Source: an uncultured Pelagibacteraceae bacterium (GTDB taxonomy: Bacteria > Pseudomonadota > Alphaproteobacteria > Pelagibacterales > AG-422-B15). Taken from it: a stretch of 64,000 nt of DNA. Below, one piece after another: positions 31,950-47,257 of this stretch. A model generated the notes under the pieces. The model ran no database searches and had not been told where the DNA came from. It saw only the letters and a list, made by a program, of their open reading frames with translations. Both the position numbers and the translations under genes were made by a program. The stretch spans positions 145,774 through 209,773 of the forward strand of contig CABZCR010000001.1 in NCBI GenBank assembly GCA_902524285.1, given 5' to 3'. The stretch's first letter is position 1. The number at the start of each line of letters is the position of its first letter.

Positions 31950-33011
31950 ATGGATCATAATCTAAAAAAAATTCGAGACTCTGTCATCGAGCACACTTTA
32001 AAGTTGAACAACGATCAACTTGCACTTTTATTATTAATTCAACTTTCTCGTCATCAAAATCTATTTATTCACGAACCGTCAGATTGGGAAGATAGTCCAA
32101 CAGGTTGGATTACAAAAGATCAAAGACTGCAAGATGAAGTAATTGCTATTTTGTCTTTTATAATACTTTTTTCATTTACGAATGCATATCATGATGAAGA
32201 TTTATTTAAAGATCATAGAGCTGAAATTTTAGCAATGCGTCCGGAAGACTTTCTGAATAATTCAATTTATCAGTCACCTTTTAGTCAATTCATTGGAAAA
32301 AAAATTACCATTGGTTCGCTTTCAACTTATTTCAATATTCCAAAAGAAAGTATGAGAAGATATTTAAATTCAGTTTTAGAAAGTGATTTGATAACTAAGG
32401 ATCCAAAATATGGATATCTTGTGAATTTTGAAGCATATCAAGCATATATATTTACCAATTCATTAAGTAATATCTATAAATCAGTCATGCGCTCATTAAA
32501 TGATTTTATAGTGAATTTAGAAGATTATTTTAAAATTAATTTTAATTTAAAACCTCTAACTTCAATCAATGCAAAAAAATTTTCTCAGCCAAAATGGAAT
32601 AGAGTGCGATTACATTTATATCACTTCTGGGTAAGAATACTTACTTTAGAGGGAAGCGACCAATCACTTTTGCCGGCCGATCGCATAATACTCTCAGCTG
32701 CGGTATATTTTAAAAACAGACACGGTATATTAAAGTATAAATCAATTGAAGATTTATACGAGAGTGAACATCTTCTTCCAACAAATCTTTCTTCGATTTC
32801 TGAAGCAGCAAAAATGCCACGTGAAACTGTAAGAAGATCAAGTAAGAAATTAATTGAATTGAAACATCTTGAAAAAAAAGGCAGGAATATTTATCGGATT
32901 AATTATCCAAAACTCAATGGAGAGGTAGATATTTTTTTAAAATTTAAAGAATTAACTTTTACTGAAATGATGAACTTTTATTTCAATATTTATGAGGATT
33001 TAATGAATTAA
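31950..33011 (+). CDS. Putative regulator with two winged-helix segments
   Basis: A 353-residue protein with two similar helix-turn-helix segments: ITIGSLSTYFNIPKESMRRYL (about residues 115-135) and LSSISEAAKMPRETVRRSSK (about 278-298). Each is followed by a short wing-like stretch (DPKYGYLVN; KKGRNIYRIN). The pattern P-[KR]-E-[ST]-[MV]-RR is shared, indicating an internal duplication. Between them is a helical region of about 130 residues. No known family is recognised. It is divergent from the glutamine-synthetase-like gene, which it may control, and its end overlaps the TolC gene by four bases. Confidence 0.6.
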   Translation: MDHNLKKIRDSVIEHTLKLNNDQLALLLLIQLSRHQNLFIHEPSDWEDSPTGWITKDQRLQDEVIAILSFIILFSFTNAYHDEDLFKDHRAEILAMRPEDFLNNSIYQSPFSQFIGKKITIGSLSTYFNIPKESMRRYLNSVLESDLITKDPKYGYLVNFEAYQAYIFTNSLSNIYKSVMRSLNDFIVNLEDYFKINFNLKPLTSINAKKFSQPKWNRVRLHLYHFWVRILTLEGSDQSLLPADRIILSAAVYFKNRHGILKYKSIEDLYESEHLLPTNLSSISEAAKMPRETVRRSSKKLIELKHLEKKGRNIYRINYPKLNGEVDIFLKFKELTFTEMMNFYFNIYEDLMN

Positions 33012-35830
33012 ATTGAGCACATTAGAATGACTTCTTCATTACAAGTAAGTTCAGCGTCAACAATTGAGCTATTCTCTGAACTTAATTGAGTATCAAGTTC
33101 TTCGAGCATCGATTTAGCCTCAATCATTGGAACTGGACCGATTACTACTGAGAAGTCATTTTTATCAAATTTTTCCACATTTATATCATACTGAAGGAAA
33201 CGCGTATCAAAGCCCATCAATTCATATATGTAATTCATAAGGCTGTTTGCAGAATTTCCTCGCGTATAAGAGCCAATTTTTATATATACATATTCAGCAT
33301 TAGATGAACTTTCAGATAGATTATTACTCTCTGTAGTTGTTGTTTCATTTGCTTGAGCACTGAATGAACTAGTTTCAGTATCAATAGTTGTATCCACAAG
33401 CTCATTTAAGTTCGCTAACGCTTCTTCAGTCTCTTTAGCTAACTTTTCTTCAAGCTCTTCCTGAGCTTTTTTTTCTGCAATTTCTTTCTGTTTATTTTCT
33501 TCAACTAATTGAGCTAATTCTTCTCTTGCTTCAGTTGCTTCAGTGATTAGTTGCTCATTATCAGCCAGAAGCTGCTCATTATCAGCTAGAAGCTGCTCGT
33601 TTTCTTGAATAATCTTTTTTGTTGGCAATATATTATTTTCTTCAACTGCATTAGCAATTGTTTCATTTGCAGTTACAACTTCCGATTCAGTATTTGCGTC
33701 AGCACTTTCATCAAAAATTTGATTATTAAATTCTAGTGAATCTTGCTCTTCATTCAAATTATCAATTGATCCCTCAAGTAATTGGTCAACCGAATCCAAA
33801 AGACTGTTTAAATCTTCAGCTGATGCATTACTAAACTCGTATTCTGTTTCAATTGGCTCTGGTGGAGTTTCTTCAACTTCTATTGTTTCATCAATCTCGG
33901 CTGACTCAACTGTACTTTCGTCAACTTCTTCAACCGGCAATGTTTCTTCTTGATTGCTCAGTTTGGACATTTGTGCCAGTTCTTTTCTAGCTCTTTCACC
34001 TTCATTTGCTAAGAATGTTTCTTCATCAACAAACTTAAGTATGAATTGGTCTTCTGTTGAAACTAACGCATTAGCAACGCTAATTTTTAGTTTTATACCT
34101 GTCACGTCTTCGGGCGGATTACCAACTATAGACAAGTCTGAAGTCAAGAATGCAAGCCATCGAGGTAAATCACTGCCGTCTTGTTGAGTAACTGAATATC
34201 TTAATTTACCAGGACCCGAGATATTAAATGTATTTTTTGATATTTTAAATTTATTGTTTTTTTGTTTTGTATTGATTGGGTCTTTGATGATTAAAAGTTG
34301 TGGGTTTTGCTCTTCTAAAGGAATATTTACAGACGCTTGGTATGAAGTACCCCATTCAGCTAAATTAGTCTTTATGCTGCTGCTTAAATCTTCAATTGTC
34401 ATATTTTGATGATTTTCTGGAAGCAGATCCTTACCAATTGATGCGTAAATTTGGCCAATGCTGTGCTGCATTTCTGAGAAAGCTAAGTCTTTTCTCAATT
34501 CTGCAACTAGTAGGCTTGCTTCTTCTCTAATGACTTCCAGTTCGCCAAACCTTGATACCTTTTGTGCATTTTGTACTTGCTTACTTATTCTTTCCGCAAC
34601 ATCTAAATACCTTTGCGCCGTATCATATTCTTCGATAGCAAGGTCATAGTTTATATTTGATAAATGTACTTGCGAAATAACTGTCATTGCTATCGCTAAA
34701 TGTCTCTCAGCAATGACTTCTTGATTAGCTTTAGAAGCCTTTCTTGATGCTCCAATAGAGAATATATCAAATAAATTCCCGCCAATTGATGCGCCATACT
34801 CAGTAGTATCTTGGTTTAATAAGTAATTATTATTTGTATATCCATACGCTGCATTAAATTTTAAACTTGGTATCAGTGCTAGCATAGCAGCTCTTGTGTC
34901 TTTACTTGAAATCCGTTTTTGGTATCTGCTTTCCATAAGTTCAGGTCTCGAACGAAGGGCTATTTCCTCCATAGCTTGAATATTCATGTTTAAATTTGTT
35001 AAAAATGTATTTTCGTCTGCCAGTGTGAATTTTTGACTGGGCATTAGACCCATCAGAGAAGCAAGTTCGTTTCTAGAATTTATGAGTGCACGTTGCTGGG
35101 TTTGAAGTGTGCGCTGAACATCGAGCAGTTCTTTTTGATAAAGCAATGAGTCCATTGGCGCAGAAATTAAAAGCTCTTCTATATACTGAGAATCAGCAAG
35201 AGCATCTTCAACTCTCTTTAAAAGAGGATTGAGTTTCTCAAGAAGTTTCTCAGAAGCCTGAGCTTTCCAATAAGATCTAATGATATCTCGTGTTATATTT
35301 TGAATAGCTTTTCTCTCAAGCTCCTTAGCAATTAAATACCTGTCAGCCTGTTGTCCTGCACGGATGTATGAAAGACCAAAGTCTAGGGCGTTCCAAGTAA
35401 ATTCAATATTTCTTGTAGTTTGAGATCTGTCTCTTGAAATAGTATATGACTCATTACCCTCTAAGTCAGGTGCGGGTTCAGAGTCATTCAAAACTGTAAC
35501 ACTTGTAGAAGGTTGAAGCTCAGTAAACTTTGAATAACCTGCGTTAAGCGCTATATCAGGAAGCATATCAAATTTTTGCAAGTCTCTTTGACGCTGTGAA
35601 AGTGCAGACTCCATTACACTTATTCTTAGGTCACGATTGTTTCTTACTGCAATTGCAATTGCGGTGTGTAAATCAATATTTTGTAAAGTCGCATCAACTT
35701 CAAGCTGAGCTATATCTTCAGCAATTGAAAAACTTAAAGACTCTTCATCAATTACTTTTGGAGATCGCGCACAAGCAACGAGTGCCAAACATATGAAAAC
35801 TATAAATAATTTTTTTATTGAGTTGACCAT
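33008..35830 (-). CDS. TolC-family lipoprotein fused to Ig-like, coiled-coil and SPOR domains
   Basis: A 940-residue protein, twice the length of TolC. The lipobox LVAC places the lipidated Cys at residue 20. Residues about 50-470 are the TolC/OEP duct (two repeats; LDVQRTLQTQQRALINSRNEL and the corresponding second half). Residues about 520-602 form an Ig/cadherin-like module (SDLPRWLAF, NPPEDVTGI). Residues 630-735 are very acidic. Residues 738-815 are a heptad coiled coil (ENEQLLADNEQLLADNEQ). Residues about 847-917 look like a SPOR domain (YVYIKIGSYTRG, FSVVIGPV), which would bind denuded septal peptidoglycan. Divergent from the giant adhesin, it is the likely outer-membrane channel for that protein. 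Confidence 0.85.
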   Translation of the reverse strand: MVNSIKKLFIVFICLALVACARSPKVIDEESLSFSIAEDIAQLEVDATLQNIDLHTAIAIAVRNNRDLRISVMESALSQRQRDLQKFDMLPDIALNAGYSKFTELQPSTSVTVLNDSEPAPDLEGNESYTISRDRSQTTRNIEFTWNALDFGLSYIRAGQQADRYLIAKELERKAIQNITRDIIRSYWKAQASEKLLEKLNPLLKRVEDALADSQYIEELLISAPMDSLLYQKELLDVQRTLQTQQRALINSRNELASLMGLMPSQKFTLADENTFLTNLNMNIQAMEEIALRSRPELMESRYQKRISSKDTRAAMLALIPSLKFNAAYGYTNNNYLLNQDTTEYGASIGGNLFDIFSIGASRKASKANQEVIAERHLAIAMTVISQVHLSNINYDLAIEEYDTAQRYLDVAERISKQVQNAQKVSRFGELEVIREEASLLVAELRKDLAFSEMQHSIGQIYASIGKDLLPENHQNMTIEDLSSSIKTNLAEWGTSYQASVNIPLEEQNPQLLIIKDPINTKQKNNKFKISKNTFNISGPGKLRYSVTQQDGSDLPRWLAFLTSDLSIVGNPPEDVTGIKLKISVANALVSTEDQFILKFVDEETFLANEGERARKELAQMSKLSNQEETLPVEEVDESTVESAEIDETIEVEETPPEPIETEYEFSNASAEDLNSLLDSVDQLLEGSIDNLNEEQDSLEFNNQIFDESADANTESEVVTANETIANAVEENNILPTKKIIQENEQLLADNEQLLADNEQLITEATEAREELAQLVEENKQKEIAEKKAQEELEEKLAKETEEALANLNELVDTTIDTETSSFSAQANETTTTESNNLSESSSNAEYVYIKIGSYTRGNSANSLMNYIYELMGFDTRFLQYDINVEKFDKNDFSVVIGPVPMIEAKSMLEELDTQLSSENSSIVDAELTCNEEVILMCSI

Positions 35831-36036: not shown

Positions 36037-39000
36037 ATGACCAAAAAACTAATTCAGGCACTTGAACCACGCATGATGCTCGATGGAGCAGCAGTCGCAA
36101 CTGCAATCGACACCATCGACGATCTAGCAAATTTGAACAAGACTGATTTAGATAAAAAATCAAAAGAAAATAATTTTAAAACCGACCAAGATACAAAACT
36201 TCCATTTGTAAATCGAGAGGGCATTAATCAAAACACAAGAACAAAACAATTTGTATTCATTGACAGTGCAGTTGATGACATTGAAGTTTTAATTGAAAGT
36301 TTTGATGACCACACTGAAGTGCATATCATTCAAAGTGATGTTGATGGTTTTAAAGAAATGCAAAGCATTCTTTCTGATGAAAAAAACATTGATGGCATCC
36401 ATGTTATTGGTCACGGTAGTATTGGTCAGATAGCATTCGGCGATGCGATTTTAAATAGTGAAACATTAAATGAGTACAAACAAACGTTAAAAGATATTGG
36501 TGCAAGCTTAAGTGCTGATGGCGATATTCTATTCTACGGTTGTAACATTGCAGCTGATGAAAGTGGCGAGATTTTAATTAAGCAAATTGCTCAAATTACC
36601 GACGCTGATATTGCTGCATCAGACGATATAACCGGTAAGGGTGGTGACTGGGATCTTGAAAAGCATACAGGTATTATCGAGACTAAAAATATTGATGTTG
36701 AACACTATAATTATTCACTTGCTAACGATATAACTGAAACTAACACAAGTGTCATTAACCTTTCCTCTTCTGCAACCGACTTTAGGGCACAAGTTACTAC
36801 TGATGATACTAATAACAGAGGAGTGCAGGATACTACTTCAGATCGATTTATAATAGTCCAAGAAAGAGCAGATGTTAAAAGTGGTACAGGGGCCCTAAAC
36901 TTCGATGTCTCTGGAGCAAAAAGCTCACATACACCAAGTACGAGTGAGCCTGTTCATGTATATTTACTTTTCTCTAATGATGACACTAATAGTAACTCTA
37001 GACGAACTGGTAGTCGAGTAGGTGAAGTAACTTTTGATTATGAAATACTTGGCGTATTTGCGGAACCTGAAAATTTGATTGAAATGACAGGGGTTTCAAT
37101 GGATGGCGGGATTTATCCAACATTGGAATCAGATAAAATTGGTAAGAGGGAGTTGGAATACAAGAATGAAAATCCTCCGGGTGTAGAAGGGAATAAAGAC
37201 TGGTTTGCAATATCAAATGGCAACAAGACGATTAGAATTGGTACTAAAAATGGTGAGAAAGGTGACTTTATTCGTATTATCACGAGAGCACCAGTATCCA
37301 ATCCTGTCGTCGGCAACAATGATTCAGGTTACATTAATGAAGATGACATATTAAGTGTTCTTGATGGAGCAAGTGCAAATGATAGTACACCAGATACATC
37401 AGGCGAACATACAGGTGATGTATTGCTCAATGATACTGGTGGAGTTGCAAGTTTATACGTAAGTGCTATTGCCGGAGGATCTCTTGGTTCGCCAGTTGAT
37501 GGTACCTATGGACAGTTGACACTGTCTCCAAATGGATCATACAGTTATAACGCCAACAAAGATGCTGCTGATGCTCTAGATGCTGGCAGCCCAGGAGATA
37601 CAGAAACTGACACATTCACTTACACTGTAACTGATGGAACCACAACAGCTAACGCTACAATCACCATCACTATTGAAGGAGTAAATGATGCTCCTGTTGG
37701 AGTCGCGGATACTGGATCAGTCAATGAAGATAAACAGGTTACAGTCAGTGCAGGAAGTGGGGTTTTATCAAATGATACAGATGAGGACGGCAGTTCAAGT
37801 CTACAAGTTTCTGCTGTCGGAGGCAATGGATCAGCCGTTGGTCAAGATGTTACAGGATCTCTTGGTACTTTAAATTTAGATGCTGATGGATCTTACACCT
37901 ATATTGCTGACCAAGCTGGTGCTGATGCAATCACCGCAGGACAAACTGCAACAGATACATTTGCGTATACTGTTAGTGATGGCACAGCAACAAGCACCGT
38001 AAACTTAGTCATCACCGTTACAGGTGTCGGACCCGCTGCTGTCAATGATACTGATACCGTTGCTGAGAATGGTTCTCTTAATCGTAATGCAGCTGCCGGA
38101 GTACTTGACAATGACAATGATAATGCAGCAAAAGACTCTGAAAATTTAATTGTCACAGAGATCTCCTCCAACAGCACAGGAAACAGTGGTAATGCTACTC
38201 AAGGCGTACTTGGAACCTATGGTACCTTAACGGTTGCAGCTGATGGAAGTTACACATATATCGCAAATACTGCTGCAGCAGAGGCTTTAGCTGCAGGCGA
38301 TAATAGTCAAACTGATATATTCACTTATAAAATGAAAGATGATAATGGGGTCAACGAAGCTCAAGCCACTTTAACTATTACAATACAAGGTCAAGATGAT
38401 GATCCTGTCGCATCCGCAGATACAGGAACAGCCAACGAAGATGGACCACTAGTATCAGTTGCTGCTACTGGTGTTTTAGCCAATGATACAGATGTAGATG
38501 CCGGAGAAACGTTAGTGGTTTCAGCTGTTGGAGGTAATGGAGCAGCCGTTGGTCAAGATGTTACAGGATCTCTTGGTACTTTGAATTTAGATGCAGATGG
38601 ATCTTACACGTATATTGCTGACCAAGCTGGTGCCGATGCAATCATCGCAGGACAAACTGCAACAGATACATTTAATTATACTTTAAGTGACGGTGCAGGA
38701 ACAACAAGTACTGTGAACTTAGTCATCACGGTTACAGGTAAAGGACCACAAGGTGTTAATGATACAGCGTCGGTAGATGAGAATTCAACAGTAGCGAAGA
38801 GTAACGCCTCTACAAATGGGGTACTTTCCAACGATGATGATAATGCGATATACGACCAAGAAAGTCTTGAAGTAACTGCTATCACTGGAGCATCATCTGG
38901 AACAGTTGGAGGTGAAACAGCTGGTACACACGGTACTCTTACTATGGACTCGGATGGTACTTATTCTTATGAAGCAACCAACAATGCGCTGGATGAGGGA

Positions 39001-42000
39001 GAAACTGTTACTGATGTCTTCACTTACACAGTTAAGGATGATGATAACAAGAATGCAAGCACAGCAACCTTAACCATTACTGTTACTGGTAAAAATGATG
39101 ATATTACTGCGGTTGCAGATACAGATACAATAAGTGCTGGATCGACGATCACAAGAGACGAGGCATCAACGTTTGAATTAGATCACGATGATACTGACCC
39201 TGACGGCGATGATGTACCAGGCAATTTTATTATTACAAATATCAGACATGGTTCTGATGATTATAACCCTGGTCAAGAAATTACGACATCAAAAGGTAGA
39301 TTAACAGTCGATGAAAATGGTTCTTATACTTATGTAGCTGATCAAAGCGGTTCAACAGGCTTATCAAACGGTGCTCAAGCAACTGATGTCTTTACTTATA
39401 CAGTTCGTGATCATGCGAGCAGTCCAAATGATACAGATACTGCGACACTAACAATCACAATTACCGGTTCAAACAACAACCCACCTGTTGCAGATGCTGA
39501 TGGCAATGCTGGAACAGGATACATCCTAGAAGATCAAACATTGACAGTTACGAATGGTTCTACTGGAGAAACAGGATCTGACGGCAATAATAATAATGAA
39601 AGTGGAGATAATACGGGGGATGTGCTAGAAAACGACACCGACGCTGATGGACACACACTTACTGTTTCAGATATCTCGGGAGGATCAGTTGGCGCTAGTG
39701 GCGCAACAGGAACATACGGAACATTAACTATTCAAAGTGATGGTAGTTATACCTACAACGCAAACAATGCAAACTCGATAGCAAAAGATGCAACAGCAAC
39801 TGATGTCTTTACTTATACAGTCAGTGATGGCAATGGTGGGTTTGATACTGCCACAATAACCATTACTGTTTTAGGTGTGAATGATGCTCCAAGTGCAAGC
39901 AACGATACGAACGCCGTTGATGAAGATGCTACAGCATCAAAAAATGCTGGAGCAGGAGTACTTTCAAACGATAGTGATGCTGACACGGGTTCAAGCATGA
40001 CGGTGACAGGAATTACTGGAGCATCAGCAGGTTCAGTTGGTGGATCAACTGATGGAACTTATGGTACTCTGACTCTCAATTCTGATGGCAGTTATTCTTA
40101 TACTGCTGACAAAACAGCTGCTGATGCACTGGCACATAACGCAACGGCTAATGATGTATTCACTTATACGGTTACAGATAATGAGGGAGCTACTGCTACG
40201 GCAACTCTGACCATCACGGTAACCGGTAAGGGGCCTGTTGGTTCAGCAGATACAGCTACAGCAACCGAAAGTCAGACATTAACAGTCAATGAGGCAGATG
40301 GAGTATTAACAAATGACTCTGGTGGAGATACGGAAAGTCTCGCCGTTACAAATATTGAGTCAGGTGGTACGGGTAATACAGGCACTGCTGGTCAAGGTGT
40401 TTTAGGTACGTATGGTACTTTAACTATTGCAGCTGATGGAAGTTACACATACACACCAAACACAGCTGCCGCAGAGGCATTGGATGCAGGTGATACTGTT
40501 ACCGAAGTATTTACTTATACTGTAAAGGATGATGACGATAAAAACTCATCCACTGCAACGCTTACCTTTACAATCAATGGAGCAAACGATGCAATTGTTG
40601 CCGTTGATGATACAGATAGTGTTAACGAGGATGCAACGGTTACAAGATTAATTAGTGATGACCAAGAACTTGATCATGATGACACAGATGTTGATGGGGA
40701 TGATACAAGTGGAAACTTTACAATTACAGATATCAGAACTGGTCCAAAGGATGGAACTGGAACTGATGGTACAGTTGGTGTGGCACTCACTGGTGAATTT
40801 GGAACTCTTACTGTTAATGCAGATGGTTCGTATACCTATGTTGCTGATCAAGATAAATCTGATCAATTGTTAACAAACCAAACAGGAACCGATATATTTA
40901 CATACACAGTAAGTGATGGCACTGCAACGTCAACCGGACAACTAACGTTCACTGTGACAGGTATCAATGATAACGATCCAGTCGCTGTTGATGACACAGA
41001 TACTGTTAAACGTGACTCGTCAATTACCCGAGATGCTGGTTCAGCATTTGATATTGACTCTGATGATACTGACAACGATGGTGATACTTTGACAATTGCC
41101 GCGGTTCGTACAGGTCAAGCTGAAGGCGGAGGCAAAGGTGGCAGTAGTTCCGTTGGGTCGACGCTTGTGGGCACTTACGGTACGCTCACTTTAAATAGTG
41201 ATGGTAGCTATACATACTCAGCAGATCAGGATGCCGCGAATAGCTTAAAAAGAGGTGACAGTGCTATTGATTATTTCAACTATACTGTTACCGATGGAAG
41301 TAGAACAGATACTGGAGTAATTGCATTTACAGTTGAGGGTATAAGTGATCCACCTGAGCCAGTAAACGATGTTTTAGAAGTCGATGCGGCTGCAACAGCA
41401 TCTAAAAATGCAGCTCAGGGAGTATTAATAAATGATACCGATCCAGACGGAGATACTTTATCTGTAGATAGCATTAGAACTGGTCGTGAAAATAAAACAG
41501 GCACGTCAGGAACAATCGGCACAGCTCTGTCTGGAGCATACGGTGATCTTACAATGAATTCTAATGGTAGTTATGAGTACAAGGCAAACAATGCTGGACG
41601 ACTTAATCCCGGGGAAACAGCCATAGATTATTTCACTTATACAGCAACTGATGGCGATTCCTCTGTTGAAGCTCAAATTGCAGTGACAGTCACTGGTATA
41701 AATGACCCACCTGAAGTTTTATATCCTGTCCAAGATCCAAATACAGTTACTGGAGCATCAATCGTTATTAAACACAAACAGATTTTTGATGATCCAGATA
41801 GTGGTATTTACGACATTGCAGAATACAAGATTATTGATCCTGATAGTGGTGCAGAGACAAGTCTTCCAGAGGGTCTTAGACTAAAACAAAATAAAATTAC
41901 TGGATCGATAAGCACACCAGGAGTGTATATAGTAACTATAAGAGCAATAGACGGTGCAGGTCTATACGCTGATCATACTTTTACAATTACTGTGAATCCA

Positions 42001-43083
42001 AAACCAGGTGAAATTGCAGAGAACGAATTTATTAATGAAGAGATAAACCCTTACACTGAAACAGTTGTAATTAAACCTAAGAAAGATTATTTAGCGGCAA
42101 TAAAAGAAACAATTAACGAAGTATCAATCAGTGATGAGGGGTTCTCACTTGATACAGTTTCAATTGCTGATACAGCGTCTCTATCAAAACCTTTAAAATT
42201 TAATGGCGGATTAAGGTTAATGGATGCTGTTGCAAATGAAGTTTCCGGGGATTTAGCATCTGATTTAAAAGTTGGCGTTAAATTAAATGATGATAATCAA
42301 AAAAATGTTGAGCTATATTCAGGCCAGCTATCAAACGGTGAGGCATTGCCTGAATGGATCAAAGTCAATCCTGAAACAGGAGAAACAACAGCAGACATGC
42401 CTGAAGGGGTTGATGCAGTTGAGGTTCAATTAGTTGCTCTTGATAAAGATGGGAATACAAGGGATATCAACATTATTTTAGATAAAGCCAAAATTAAAGG
42501 TGACCAAGATTTTACGAGAGGCGCTGTCGATCAAGCAAGAGTAGTAGTTGATAATGACTCAAACGTTAATTTGATTAGAGAAAATAATAATTCTTCCGGT
42601 AATGCTACTAACAATAATTTAAATGCTCAAACAGACTTTGAGGGCACAATGAAGATAAGCAGTCTTCAAATGGACGCAGGCCAATACACTATAGATGTAA
42701 TTGATGACAACCAACCAAATGTGAAAATTTACAAAGCAGAGTTAAAAGGTGGTGGCTCTCTTCCTGATTGGATTACAATTGATCCTGAAACTGGAAAAAT
42801 TGCAGCTGACCCTTCAAAAGGTAGGACAGGCTTAGCAGCTCCAGCATTCTTAACTGAAAGCCTTCAAGTTCTTGAACTAAAAATTATTGCTGAAGACGAA
42901 GATGGAAAAGAGAGAGTTATTGAAGTTGAGATTGATCTTAATGAAGTGATAGGAACTGAGTCTAATGAGGAAAATTCTGCAACAAACGATGAAATCTCCT
43001 TTATTCCACTTGATGAACAATTAAAACTACATGCTAAAGCAGCAGATAGCTATGGCGAAAAGATTGTATCTCTAGTAAGTTAA
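36037..43083 (+). CDS. Giant DUF4347/VCBS-repeat adhesin with N-terminal LEPR motif
   Basis: A 2348-residue surface protein with no Sec signal. The N-terminus MTKKLIQALEPRMMLDGAA is the LEPR-type motif found at the start of many giant exported proteins. Residues about 70-230 are DUF4347 with HVIGHGSIG (His126) and ILFYGCNIA (Cys169). Residues about 420-1887 hold twelve VCBS/cadherin-like repeats of about 122 residues, with conserved GTYGTLT, DGSYTY and DVFTYTV strands and many acidic Ca2+-type loops. One further cadherin-like domain follows (1888-1990), then a C-terminal tail with two LPEWIKVNPETG/LPDWITIDPETG modules. No RTX nonapeptides are visible. It is followed by three adaptor genes with gaps of 11, -4 and 0 bases. 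Confidence 0.9.
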   Translation: MTKKLIQALEPRMMLDGAAVATAIDTIDDLANLNKTDLDKKSKENNFKTDQDTKLPFVNREGINQNTRTKQFVFIDSAVDDIEVLIESFDDHTEVHIIQSDVDGFKEMQSILSDEKNIDGIHVIGHGSIGQIAFGDAILNSETLNEYKQTLKDIGASLSADGDILFYGCNIAADESGEILIKQIAQITDADIAASDDITGKGGDWDLEKHTGIIETKNIDVEHYNYSLANDITETNTSVINLSSSATDFRAQVTTDDTNNRGVQDTTSDRFIIVQERADVKSGTGALNFDVSGAKSSHTPSTSEPVHVYLLFSNDDTNSNSRRTGSRVGEVTFDYEILGVFAEPENLIEMTGVSMDGGIYPTLESDKIGKRELEYKNENPPGVEGNKDWFAISNGNKTIRIGTKNGEKGDFIRIITRAPVSNPVVGNNDSGYINEDDILSVLDGASANDSTPDTSGEHTGDVLLNDTGGVASLYVSAIAGGSLGSPVDGTYGQLTLSPNGSYSYNANKDAADALDAGSPGDTETDTFTYTVTDGTTTANATITITIEGVNDAPVGVADTGSVNEDKQVTVSAGSGVLSNDTDEDGSSSLQVSAVGGNGSAVGQDVTGSLGTLNLDADGSYTYIADQAGADAITAGQTATDTFAYTVSDGTATSTVNLVITVTGVGPAAVNDTDTVAENGSLNRNAAAGVLDNDNDNAAKDSENLIVTEISSNSTGNSGNATQGVLGTYGTLTVAADGSYTYIANTAAAEALAAGDNSQTDIFTYKMKDDNGVNEAQATLTITIQGQDDDPVASADTGTANEDGPLVSVAATGVLANDTDVDAGETLVVSAVGGNGAAVGQDVTGSLGTLNLDADGSYTYIADQAGADAIIAGQTATDTFNYTLSDGAGTTSTVNLVITVTGKGPQGVNDTASVDENSTVAKSNASTNGVLSNDDDNAIYDQESLEVTAITGASSGTVGGETAGTHGTLTMDSDGTYSYEATNNALDEGETVTDVFTYTVKDDDNKNASTATLTITVTGKNDDITAVADTDTISAGSTITRDEASTFELDHDDTDPDGDDVPGNFIITNIRHGSDDYNPGQEITTSKGRLTVDENGSYTYVADQSGSTGLSNGAQATDVFTYTVRDHASSPNDTDTATLTITITGSNNNPPVADADGNAGTGYILEDQTLTVTNGSTGETGSDGNNNNESGDNTGDVLENDTDADGHTLTVSDISGGSVGASGATGTYGTLTIQSDGSYTYNANNANSIAKDATATDVFTYTVSDGNGGFDTATITITVLGVNDAPSASNDTNAVDEDATASKNAGAGVLSNDSDADTGSSMTVTGITGASAGSVGGSTDGTYGTLTLNSDGSYSYTADKTAADALAHNATANDVFTYTVTDNEGATATATLTITVTGKGPVGSADTATATESQTLTVNEADGVLTNDSGGDTESLAVTNIESGGTGNTGTAGQGVLGTYGTLTIAADGSYTYTPNTAAAEALDAGDTVTEVFTYTVKDDDDKNSSTATLTFTINGANDAIVAVDDTDSVNEDATVTRLISDDQELDHDDTDVDGDDTSGNFTITDIRTGPKDGTGTDGTVGVALTGEFGTLTVNADGSYTYVADQDKSDQLLTNQTGTDIFTYTVSDGTATSTGQLTFTVTGINDNDPVAVDDTDTVKRDSSITRDAGSAFDIDSDDTDNDGDTLTIAAVRTGQAEGGGKGGSSSVGSTLVGTYGTLTLNSDGSYTYSADQDAANSLKRGDSAIDYFNYTVTDGSRTDTGVIAFTVEGISDPPEPVNDVLEVDAAATASKNAAQGVLINDTDPDGDTLSVDSIRTGRENKTGTSGTIGTALSGAYGDLTMNSNGSYEYKANNAGRLNPGETAIDYFTYTATDGDSSVEAQIAVTVTGINDPPEVLYPVQDPNTVTGASIVIKHKQIFDDPDSGIYDIAEYKIIDPDSGAETSLPEGLRLKQNKITGSISTPGVYIVTIRAIDGAGLYADHTFTITVNPKPGEIAENEFINEEINPYTETVVIKPKKDYLAAIKETINEVSISDEGFSLDTVSIADTASLSKPLKFNGGLRLMDAVANEVSGDLASDLKVGVKLNDDNQKNVELYSGQLSNGEALPEWIKVNPETGETTADMPEGVDAVEVQLVALDKDGNTRDINIILDKAKIKGDQDFTRGAVDQARVVVDNDSNVNLIRENNNSSGNATNNNLNAQTDFEGTMKISSLQMDAGQYTIDVIDDNQPNVKIYKAELKGGGSLPDWITIDPETGKIAADPSKGRTGLAAPAFLTESLQVLELKIIAEDEDGKERVIEVEIDLNEVIGTESNEENSATNDEISFIPLDEQLKLHAKAADSYGEKIVSLVS
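37300..41700 (+). repeat. Twelve VCBS-type repeats in the adhesin gene
   Basis: Twelve in-frame repeats of about 330-400 bp, each encoding one cadherin-like domain. DNA conservation is low overall, but the stretches 37840-37962 and 38551-38673 (711 bp apart, 123 bp each) differ at only about five positions, showing recent duplication or gene conversion between the second and fourth repeats. The third and ninth repeats also share a closely similar core. Confidence 0.85.
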
Positions 43084-43094
43084 TAAACACCTTT

Positions 43095-43814
43095 ATGAAC
43101 AAAATTGTAACATTTGCGGTAACAGCGTGCTGCATATTATTGCCTTATAATTTGTCAGCAGAAGAATATTCTACACGTGTTTTAGTAACTGCAACCGAAG
43201 AGGCAACACTCTCAAGTGAACTTGCTGCAAAAGTTGAGTCAATTCCAATTGATGAAGGATCTGAATTTAAAGAGTCTGATATTTTAATTAAGTTTGATTG
43301 TTCATTCTTTGAAGAACAAAGAAAAGTTGTTGAAGCACAATTAGAAAGTGCAAGAGTAACTCTAAAGAGCAATCAAGACCTTGCCTTGATGAGATCCATT
43401 GGTGAGTATGAGGTTCAATTATCAGAAATCGATGTAAAGCGTGCAGAAGCTGAATTACAGATTGCTAAACTCAATACAGATCGATGTATAATTACAGCCC
43501 CTTATGATGGCAAAGTATCCAAAGTGTTTGTAAACGAGTTTGAAAGTATTGAAAGGCAGCAGCCGTTAGTTGAAATCATTGGATCTGGCATTCTTGAGGC
43601 CAAACTGATTGTTTCAAGTAAATGGCTGGCTTGGATTGATGAGGGTTATCCAATGAAAATCAGTATTGATGAAAATGGACAAACATATAGCGCCAAAATT
43701 CATACCATTGGCGTAGATATTGATCCTGTTAGCCAAACAATCGACATTACTGCAAAGTTTGATGAAAATTATGATACATTACTGCCAGGCATGAGTGGGA
43801 CAGCAACGTTTTGA
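43095..43814 (+). CDS. Periplasmic adaptor (HlyD/RND membrane-fusion protein), short
   Basis: A 239-residue protein with a signal peptide (MNKIVTFAVTACCILLPYNL then SAEE), so it is exported or membrane-tethered. The biotinyl-lipoyl-like halves are present (TLSSELAAKVESIPIDEGSE and CIITAPYDGKVSKVFVNEFE), separated by one coiled-coil hairpin (residues about 75-120), then a beta-barrel segment ending PGMSGTATF. It lacks the membrane-proximal domain of full RND adaptors. It is the first of three adaptor genes after the adhesin and should bridge inner-membrane components to the TolC-like duct. Confidence 0.85.
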   Translation: MNKIVTFAVTACCILLPYNLSAEEYSTRVLVTATEEATLSSELAAKVESIPIDEGSEFKESDILIKFDCSFFEEQRKVVEAQLESARVTLKSNQDLALMRSIGEYEVQLSEIDVKRAEAELQIAKLNTDRCIITAPYDGKVSKVFVNEFESIERQQPLVEIIGSGILEAKLIVSSKWLAWIDEGYPMKISIDENGQTYSAKIHTIGVDIDPVSQTIDITAKFDENYDTLLPGMSGTATF

Positions 43815-45148
43815 ATGATAATACTTCAATAAAAATAGCAAGATTAATTACTCTTGAGAAAAAATTTCGGACAGCAGAAAACTTATCCGAACTCGGATTC
43901 GTTTGTGCAAATGAGTTAAGAAGTGTTGTTGATTATAATTTTTTATTTTTTCTCACAAGATCTGCTACAGGCCGACAGAAAGTCCAAACAATTTCGGATA
44001 TTTCAGTCGTTGATAGAACTGCGCCGACAGTCACATTTGTTGAAAGATTAATAAATAAAAAGAAAGTTGAAACGGGAGTTTTTTCAGAAGTTTCAATTAG
44101 TGATTTAAGAGAAGATGGTTCAAATTTAGACTTACCTGACAATTTTCCAAATGAATTAATGGTTGTCCCGTTAATTTCAAGAACAAAGGGCGACTTAGGT
44201 TCTCTAATTATTGTACGATCTGCTAAAGTTTCAAATACAGAAAAAGAACTGCTGCAGCACATTGCTGAAACATTCAGTCATGCATTAGACTCATTTTTAT
44301 CTCAAGGATCGATTTTATCCTTTTTTGGTAGAATTTTTTCAGGTTGGTTAAAGTGGTTAATATTATCAGCAATCGCACTTGCAATGTTTATGCCAATTAA
44401 TATATCCGCAGTGGCTCCAGTTGAGGTTATCGCTAAAAATCCCTCAGTTGTTACATCACCAGTGAATGGTGTAGTGAAAAAAGTATTAGTAAACACCAAT
44501 GATGTTGTTGATGTTGGCATGGAGCTTATAAAATTAGATGATCTCAATTTTAAATCTCAATACGAAATTAACTTACAAGAATTAGAAGTTGCTGAAGCAG
44601 AATTACTAAGGGCTAAACAATCCTCATTTACAAATGATGAGGCAAAAGCAAAACTCGTTGAACTATCAACTGAAGTTGCTTTGAAAAAAAAGCAAGTCGC
44701 TTATGCTGAGGAACAATTAAAATATTCTGTCATAAAAGCGGAGGTTTCGGGCGTTGCTGTTGTTGAAGATTTTATTGATTGGCAAGGTCGTCCTGTAAAT
44801 ATAGGTGAAAAGATACTAACTATTGCAAATTCAGACGATATTGAGTTCTTAATTTACCTGCCGACAAAAGACTCACTCTTTATTGAAAAATCAGCAAGAG
44901 TTAAGGTTTTTTTAGACAGCAGCCCACTTAGCTCAATTGAAGGAAAAATATTAAGAACTTCTTACAAACCTGAATTAACAGCTGAGAATATTTTAGCTTA
45001 TAAAATACACGCTAGCCTTGAGGATAATATTGAGCCGCCGCGTATTGGATTACGAGGATCTGCAAAAATTTACGGAGATCGGACATCTCTTTTTTATTAT
45101 ATCTTTAGAGTTCCAATTAATATCAGCAGACAGTTTTTAGGAATATAA
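43811..45148 (+). CDS. GAF-like domain fused to a HlyD-type adaptor
   Basis: Starts at TTG overlapping the preceding stop (TTGA); no suitable ATG exists in frame. The 445 residues divide into a cytoplasmic GAF-like domain (about 10-165; LGSLIIVRSAKVSNTEKELL is the typical end), one transmembrane helix (about 180-198), and a periplasmic HlyD portion. The HlyD portion has two lipoyl-like halves (VTSPVNGVVKKVLVNTND; SVIKAEVSGVAVVEDF) around a coiled coil, then a barrel. It would couple a cytoplasmic signal to adaptor assembly. The next gene begins on the following base. Confidence 0.82.
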   Translation: MNDNTSIKIARLITLEKKFRTAENLSELGFVCANELRSVVDYNFLFFLTRSATGRQKVQTISDISVVDRTAPTVTFVERLINKKKVETGVFSEVSISDLREDGSNLDLPDNFPNELMVVPLISRTKGDLGSLIIVRSAKVSNTEKELLQHIAETFSHALDSFLSQGSILSFFGRIFSGWLKWLILSAIALAMFMPINISAVAPVEVIAKNPSVVTSPVNGVVKKVLVNTNDVVDVGMELIKLDDLNFKSQYEINLQELEVAEAELLRAKQSSFTNDEAKAKLVELSTEVALKKKQVAYAEEQLKYSVIKAEVSGVAVVEDFIDWQGRPVNIGEKILTIANSDDIEFLIYLPTKDSLFIEKSARVKVFLDSSPLSSIEGKILRTSYKPELTAENILAYKIHASLEDNIEPPRIGLRGSAKIYGDRTSLFYYIFRVPINISRQFLGI

Positions 45149-47257
45149 ATGATTGTACCGTCTATTCGACAAGATTTGAAACTCAGTGAGGGGCCAAAGA
45201 AAGAGGACGGCTCAGCGTCATGGCTTCTTTATGATTCATTAAGAAATAAATACTTTTCAATAAATAAAAAAGCATTTGATCTTCTTAAAAATTGGTCAAG
45301 TGGAATTGAGACCACAGAATTTATTGAAAAAATTAAAAAAAGTAATTTGTCTATTACACAAGAAGAAATTGAAGAATTTATCAGTTTTCTAAATCTTAAT
45401 AATTTAACTATTAAAAAAACAAGTGATGAAGTTAAATCCTTGGTTGTTCAAAAAGAAAAACTTAACAAGCATTGGCTGTTAAAAATTATTCATAATTATT
45501 TGTTCTTTAAAATTCCTTTATTTAAACCAGGAAATGGTCTTGAAAACAGTTTACCTTTTGCATTGTTTCTTGGATCACAAACCAGCAGACTTATAATTTA
45601 TATTCTGGGGATCATTGGTATTTTTTTAACAATCCAAAACTATGAAACATTTTTAACAACATTTTCTTATTTCTTTAATGTTAATGGATTGATTTTGTTT
45701 GGTATAACGATTGTTTTTGTAAAAGCCTTACACGAACTTGGGCACGCATATGTTGCCACTTATTATAAATGCAAAGTTTCTTCAATTGGCCTTGCAATGC
45801 TGGTTTTTTTCCCCTTCTTGTACACAGATACAACCGATGCTTATAAATTAACTGATCATAGAAAACGCTTACTGATTAATTTTGCCGGCATGCTGACTGA
45901 AATGCATCTTGCCCTTCTTGCTACATTTGTTTGGGCTGTAAGCCCTGAAGGCGTTATCAAAAGTGCTTCATTTTTTATTGCAACTTCAAGCTGGATATCA
46001 TCACTTCTTATTAATATTAGCCCGTTTATGCGATTTGACGGTTACTATGTGCTCTCAGATTTTCTTAAAGCGGAAAATCTTCAACCGCGCTCTTTTGCTT
46101 TAGGTCGATGGCAGATTAGAGAATGGATCTTTGGATTTAAATTCCAACCACCGGAACAACTCATGAGTCAAAGACGGTGGACTTTCATCATTTACGCTTG
46201 GATGACATGGATATATCGCTTCTTCATATTTATCGGAATTGCCTTATTAGTCTATTATTTAACATTCAAAATTCTTGGAATAATTCTGTTCATTATTGAG
46301 ATTGTTTGGTTCATTTTACTACCAATTTGGAGAGAAATTAAACAGTGGTGGGGACTTAGAAGGTACATGCGCTTTAATTGGACTTCATTGAGATCAATTT
46401 TTATTTTTTCATTATTTTTGGCAGCAATGTTAGTACCATGGCGAAGTTCACTCAGTCTTCCTGCGTTGATTGATCGAGGTGAAGTAGTCGATATCTATCC
46501 AACAGAAGCCTCTGAGATAAAAGAGATTTTTGTTATTTCAAATCAACAAGTCGAAAAGGGTGACTTATTAATTACAATGATGAGTCCGTCTTTATCAAAT
46601 AAAGTTGATAAAGCAATTGAGCGCGTAAAGATGATACAGCAAAAACTAGATCGTCGAATTGGATCAGAGGCTGATATGAGTAATCTCATGGTATTGGAAA
46701 ACCAATTAAAAGTAGAATTTGAAATTCTTAAAAGTCTTAAAGAAGAAAATGAAAATCTATCAATTTATGCACCAATGAGCGGGGTAATAAAAGACCTTAA
46801 GTATTTAAATAATGGACAGTGGGTGAATATAAAAGAAAAATTATTTTCTATTGTTCAATTTAATGACACTAAAGTTGTTGCATTTATAAGCGAGAATGAT
46901 TTGGACAAGCTTGAAGGTAATACAAGCGGCTATTTTATTCCAAAAAACAATGAATTTGATGAAGCAGAAGTTGTCTTAGTTTCACAAAATAATTCATCAA
47001 CTGAAGAACTTCCCTACTTATCATTAGTATCCACTTTTGGTGGATCAATTGCATCACGTGAAGTTAAGGGAGATGGAAAAGTTGTTTATCGACCAGAAGA
47101 AGCTTTGTACCAGCTTAATTTTTCTACTAGTACAGAAGTTGAGACTGTTCAATGGCAAACAGCAGGTAAAGTAAAAATTCAGACTGAAAACTATAATATT
47201 TTTCAAAATTTATTTAATCTGATTTCATCAACGTTAATCAGAGAAAGTGGATTTTAG
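45149..47257 (+). CDS. M50-type membrane protease fused to a HlyD-type adaptor
   Basis: A 702-residue protein. The N-terminal 100 residues resemble a PqqD-like domain (LLYDSLRNKYFSINKKAFDLL). A multi-span M50 core follows, with the zinc motif HELGH (His195-Glu196-His199) inside a helix and the third ligand region NISPFMRFDGYYVLSD (Asp297). Further spans follow to about residue 430, then a periplasmic HlyD part with LPALIDRGEVVDIYPTEASE, a coiled coil and YAPMSGVIKDLKYLNNGQW. Catalytic residues are intact, so intramembrane or juxtamembrane proteolysis is expected. It ends directly at the 3' end of the tRNA-like gene on the other strand. Confidence 0.88.
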   Translation: MIVPSIRQDLKLSEGPKKEDGSASWLLYDSLRNKYFSINKKAFDLLKNWSSGIETTEFIEKIKKSNLSITQEEIEEFISFLNLNNLTIKKTSDEVKSLVVQKEKLNKHWLLKIIHNYLFFKIPLFKPGNGLENSLPFALFLGSQTSRLIIYILGIIGIFLTIQNYETFLTTFSYFFNVNGLILFGITIVFVKALHELGHAYVATYYKCKVSSIGLAMLVFFPFLYTDTTDAYKLTDHRKRLLINFAGMLTEMHLALLATFVWAVSPEGVIKSASFFIATSSWISSLLINISPFMRFDGYYVLSDFLKAENLQPRSFALGRWQIREWIFGFKFQPPEQLMSQRRWTFIIYAWMTWIYRFFIFIGIALLVYYLTFKILGIILFIIEIVWFILLPIWREIKQWWGLRRYMRFNWTSLRSIFIFSLFLAAMLVPWRSSLSLPALIDRGEVVDIYPTEASEIKEIFVISNQQVEKGDLLITMMSPSLSNKVDKAIERVKMIQQKLDRRIGSEADMSNLMVLENQLKVEFEILKSLKEENENLSIYAPMSGVIKDLKYLNNGQWVNIKEKLFSIVQFNDTKVVAFISENDLDKLEGNTSGYFIPKNNEFDEAEVVLVSQNNSSTEELPYLSLVSTFGGSIASREVKGDGKVVYRPEEALYQLNFSTSTEVETVQWQTAGKVKIQTENYNIFQNLFNLISSTLIRESGF

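Follow-up and report, generated by a model that had tools for sequence, protein, structure and literature searches.

A SAR11 TolC-family protein with a predicted C-terminal SPOR-type domain, a likely peptidoglycan tether for an adhesin-associated duct

Introduction

How TolC ducts, which cross the peptidoglycan and must be held at it, are kept in place is still debated in E. coli, and a duct protein of a SAR11 bacterium raises the question of whether the hold can be built into the duct polypeptide itself. The protein is encoded in the window analysed here (the whole stretch of DNA, 64,000 nucleotides), the host of which lies nearest to Pelagibacteraceae single-cell genomes (best AG-422-B15, 90% protein identity). 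A preliminary description read the protein as a TolC-like lipoprotein with an extension ending in a SPOR-like domain, which would tether the duct to peptidoglycan and could place adhesin export at the division septum or new pole. Ducts with built-in wall-associated domains make the hold at peptidoglycan directly testable.

Domain organization of the duct protein

The gene (33008-35830, minus strand) is a single intact open reading frame of 940 aa, the product of which is predicted to be a lipoprotein of the TolC/OEP family with a C-terminal SPOR-fold domain. Its signal peptide and lipobox (35771-35830, minus strand; sequence LALVAC, with LVAC followed by A) place the predicted acylated residue at Cys20, which is unchanged across 16 aligned relatives. 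Residues 54-470 (34421-35671, minus strand) constitute the OEP duct domain, matching Pfam PF02321 with an E value of 3.4e-35 and 122 bits against a cut-off of 22. The full-length AlphaFold2 model is weak as a whole (pLDDT 63.5) and served only for domain limits; used in this coarse form as a Foldseek query it matched SilC, TolC, CusC and OprM (E about 1e-6 to 1e-4), and the duct region is predicted to adopt the TolC-type helical fold. The reading as a TolC-like lipoprotein is upheld. The protein is therefore like TolC, CusC and OprM by Pfam and by fold, and a predicted lipidated N-terminus is common in the homologues. It is unlike them in its ∼470 extra residues, in having M50-HlyD and DUF4347 adhesin genes as neighbours, and in the absence of an adjacent gene for an ABC or RND pump.

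The extra residues contain, in the order originally proposed, an Ig-like module, an acidic linker, a coiled coil and the SPOR-type end. The first of these (residues 499-602; 34025-34336, minus strand) was modelled as a beta domain with pLDDT mostly 80-91, and includes a match to He_PIG (PF05345, residues 516-596, E 1.3e-4) that is marginal, scoring 22.8 bits where the gathering cut-off is 24; among relatives the score reaches 23.5 bits in L057 and is lower in others. Comparison of this module with the adjacent adhesin gave no significant match, and a docking module common to the two proteins was discarded. The linker that follows (residues 603-736; 33623-34024, minus strand) is acidic and mostly disordered, with 40 D/E and four K/R in residues 603-735 and low pLDDT over most of its length, and leads into a long helix or coiled coil (residues 738-812; 33395-33619, minus strand) recognizable in the model and from repeated EQLLADN heptads. 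The number of these tandem heptads differs among relatives.

A precedent for a large C-terminal fusion on TolC is Bucl8 of Burkholderia, a TolC-like protein with a collagen-like C-terminal region (PMC8277102), whereas the region fused in the window protein ends in a predicted wall-binding-type fold. In the open-licence literature no paper was found on TolC-SPOR fusions or on the duct-adhesin operon.

The C-terminal domain

The C-terminal domain (residues 845-940; 33011-33298, minus strand) was modelled with AlphaFold2 from sequences of the window's own lineage (type A) only, giving a beta-alpha-beta-beta-alpha-beta-beta arrangement (pLDDT 77, pTM 0.70) in which a SPOR core at residues ∼847-919 is followed by an additional strand pair that holds two conserved cysteines, Cys930 and Cys938. 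The Pfam SPOR profile (PF05036) did not match the window protein even at E 10, and tails placed alike in sister SAR11 proteins (L060, L063, L064, and L110) scored 21.8-22.8 bits against a cut-off of 21. Profile-profile alignment related the type-A tail to a broad set of SPOR domains (E 1e-5, score 30.9) and to SPOR domains from outside the duct family (E 1.2e-4), the best score among 98 control alignments (38 decoy windows and 60 shuffles) being 15.0. Structural alignment of the tail model with VIA-align superimposed 71-72 residues on the SPOR domain of RlpA at an rmsd of 2.1-2.3 A, with Z 7.3-7.4, a range reached also by common ferredoxin-like arrangements and not decisive alone; the RlpA structures ranked second and fifth and had the lowest rmsd among the matches listed. 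The best 50 Foldseek matches to the tail model were mostly de novo ferredoxin folds with SPOR absent, and SPOR was likewise not among the matches of the type-A profile to PDB sequences, where a single match to Csa3 (E 0.07) was judged to be chance.

On the strength of the sister Pfam scores, the profile-profile alignments, the AlphaFold2 model with its RlpA match and the duct tree described below, the domain is predicted to carry a SPOR-type (RNP-like) fold. The SPOR-like C-terminus of the preliminary description is accordingly borne out by structure prediction, and PF05036 scored over its cut-off both in the sister SAR11 ducts and in OEPs of other Pseudomonadota, although the limits of the core had to be moved and the cysteine-bearing strand pair added. 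In 14 proteins of the same genus, retention of the majority residue averages ∼90% over residues 845-912 and 913-940 and 48-56% in the linkers, and the C-terminal core is retained as well as the duct. A core conserved at ∼90% beside linkers at ∼50% points to strong constraint rather than chance.

A SPOR fold at the C-terminus on a long flexible linker is also the design of RlpA, FtsN, DamX, and DedD, and RlpA is, like the window protein, a lipoprotein predicted in the outer membrane (PMC6895207). The window protein differs from all four in having an N-terminal export duct instead of a hydrolase or divisome protein, and from RlpA in its additional C-terminal strands with two cysteines and at the residues that contact glycan, as described for the RlpA SPOR domain (PMC6895207). 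The equivalents of RlpA Q270 and R309 are K851 and S894, and these positions are occupied by K and S in 19/19 aligned type-A tails but by Q and R in 15/15 tails of the canonical type B of sister SAR11 proteins, which also lack the Cys930/Cys938 extension. The type-A tail has thus diverged and its glycan site is altered, which makes its exact ligand uncertain. Other SAR11 genomes encode SPOR lipoproteins that likewise have K at the Q270 position (SIKIADF), so the change from Q to K need not by itself abolish binding.

Ancestry of the fusion

In a tree of 74 SAR11-type ducts and outgroups, the window-type tails form one clade (support 100/100), the sister clade of which carries the canonical SPOR type. 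SPOR tails are found on either side of the deepest split among the SAR11-type ducts, for which a single ancient fusion is the simplest reading, and the fusion looks ancestral in this duct family and later lost in two lineages, with the caveat that long outgroup branches leave the root of the tree not firm. The two lineages retain duct and adhesin without SPOR; certain relatives end in a coiled-coil tail alone or have no tail. Other SAR11 ducts, of the clade I type (L085-L108), bear charged coiled-coil tails in place of SPOR, several of which end in a common helical segment (NLDLDKRLDLTKKIVQDVF-like) that Pfam left unnamed in those examples that were scanned.

Tails on ducts of other Pseudomonadota

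TolC relatives in genomes that bear a peptidase M50-HlyD fusion are mostly short, and several are tailed. Matches over the Pfam cut-offs identified these tails as SPOR (L204, L207, L214, and L216), OmpA (L203, L209, and L211), AMIN (L205, L206, and L210), SH3 (L195, L212, and L213), or the NTF2-like Cds6_C (L185 and L188). The M50 gene lies ∼0.8 kb from the SPOR-tailed duct gene of L207 on the same contig, and some of the other tailed ducts are on different contigs.

Such tails are not peculiar to this duct family, as was considered, since SPOR or SH3 domains are also present on ordinary OEPs of those non-SAR11 genomes. In a control of 17 further OEP loci, which were chosen by frame length and yield no frequency, SPOR was above the cut-off in L222 and L229-L231 and SH3 in L236. 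Wall-associated tails therefore recur on ducts generally in those lineages. Open-frame length was itself abandoned as a control for tails because frames were counted from stop to stop. The SPOR and SH3 domains of these Pseudomonadota OEPs (L204, L207, L214, L216, L222, L229-L231, and L236) stand at the same end of the duct as in SAR11, but the linkers are unlike, the fusions are apparently independent, and some belong to other duct families. The loci L222, L228-L232, and L236 represent unrelated OEP ducts that end in one or two SPOR domains or in SH3.

Role of the C-terminal domain

The likeliest role of the tail is that of a general peptidoglycan tether, to which a probability of roughly 0.55 is given, the domain make-up, the predicted fold, the ancestry of the tail and the synteny being the part of this explanation that the analysis establishes. 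The duct would form a trimer in the outer membrane, and the long acidic, partly coiled-coil linker of each subunit would reach into the periplasm with a SPOR fold at its tip. Three such domains would hold the peptidoglycan and fix the depth of the duct against the wall, keeping it in place while inner-membrane parts dock and the adhesin passes; anchoring would be mechanical and positional in general, without septum specificity. This role is favoured by the different wall-associated modules that homologous ducts bear at the same end, and supported by the proposal that the equatorial domain of E. coli TolC touches peptidoglycan (PMC13082787). It is weakened by the failure of Pfam SPOR to match in the window, by the change at the Q270/R309 positions in all 19 type-A tails, by a Z score shared with ferredoxin-like folds, and by the two lineages with SPOR-less ducts.

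The preliminary description, in which export could be sited at the septum or new pole, supposes that SPOR binds denuded glycan there. The SPOR fold itself (AlphaFold2, the RlpA match, and profile-profile alignment) and the Q270 and R309 equivalents kept together in the 15 sister tails are in its favour, but both residues are altered in the lineage of the window. Amidase_3, the usual producer of denuded glycan, went undetected across 39 SAR11 genomes (completeness of 90% or more in 19), and a signal peptide is missing from the sole Amidase_2 protein, judged from three sequences. One SPOR lipoprotein of 245-290 aa occurs per SAR11 genome (L112-L139) and looks RlpA-like from its sequence, so some denuded glycan may exist. 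Related lineages have lost SPOR and retained the system, and homologous ducts carry OmpA, AMIN, or SH3 tails instead. Placement of export at the septum is for these reasons improbable, and the general tether is preferred over it, given the undetected Amidase_3, the Amidase_2 protein without a signal peptide and the loss of SPOR from a system that was kept.

Next to the tether in rank, and ahead of septal targeting, although still unlikely, is re-use of the SPOR fold for docking to an adaptor, the adhesin or an envelope protein through the surface formed by the cysteine pair and extra strands. That the contact residues are gone from a domain nonetheless ∼90% conserved, and that the cysteine extension is missing from type-B tails, would fit such a change of partner; the type-B sisters, however, retain a canonical-looking site, the tails of distant homologues are wall-associated modules, and the candidate partner is hypothetical. 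Least probable is a passive spacer, in which the tail sets length or is disordered and the end domain contributes little. Linker sequences do vary freely, and some relatives are tailless or have a coiled-coil tail alone, but an end domain conserved to the same degree as the duct is hard to reconcile with it. A peptidoglycan tether formed by the SPOR-type end, as originally suggested, is supported as the likeliest role.

The adjoining adhesin locus

The duct gene adjoins that of a giant adhesin of 2348 aa (36037-43083, plus strand) with a LEPR-type N-terminus, DUF4347 and cadherin/Ig repeats, and the adhesin gene is followed by genes for a 239-aa HlyD/RND-type adaptor (43095-43814, plus strand; NCBIfam TIGR01730 above cut-off, and Pfam), a 445-aa HlyD-like adaptor (43811-45148, plus strand; Pfam HlyD_3 and HlyD_D23), and a 702-aa peptidase M50-HlyD fusion (45149-47257, plus strand; Pfam). 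Of 80 related loci, 76 have a DUF4347 adhesin adjoining the duct gene and the remaining four are near a contig end. M50-HlyD relatives were detected in 91 genomes, that of the window among them, out of the 398 searched across the phylum. TolC-like duct, DUF4347/LEPR adhesin, two HlyD-like adaptors and M50-HlyD protein together constitute what is, judged by gene content, a conserved SAR11 cell-surface system. Adhesin export, as assumed in the preliminary description, is made plausible by the conserved synteny, which falls short of demonstrating it.

No ABC exporter gene is present among the genes of the duct-adhesin operon, and the locus is accordingly not one of type I secretion in the sense of an adaptor, a duct and an ABC exporter encoded together. 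The TIGR03375 exporter was above cut-off in 0/39 SAR11 genomes, with weaker ABC matches elsewhere in those genomes, and an exporter encoded at a distance or of another ABC type may serve the system. It is possible, though put at somewhat less than an even chance, that the locus represents an undescribed ABC-less exporter of giant adhesins, the duct of which has repeatedly been fixed to the wall by unrelated C-terminal peptidoglycan-associated modules. Its parts, taken jointly and just as tentatively, would be a LEPR/DUF4347 substrate, M50-HlyD, HlyD adaptors and a dedicated TolC, with SPOR, OmpA, AMIN, and SH3 as the modules. SAR11 is known for streamlined genomes, and if this were true such a genome would retain a dedicated wall-anchored exporter of surface adhesins, possibly without an adjacent ABC transporter.

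A PDB sequence search with the DUF4347 region of the adhesin (36037-43083) gave no match, and a match to Peptidase_C80 remained below threshold (E 0.064). The region contains GHG and YGCN motifs that recall caspase-like cysteine peptidases, and may serve for self-cleavage or retention.
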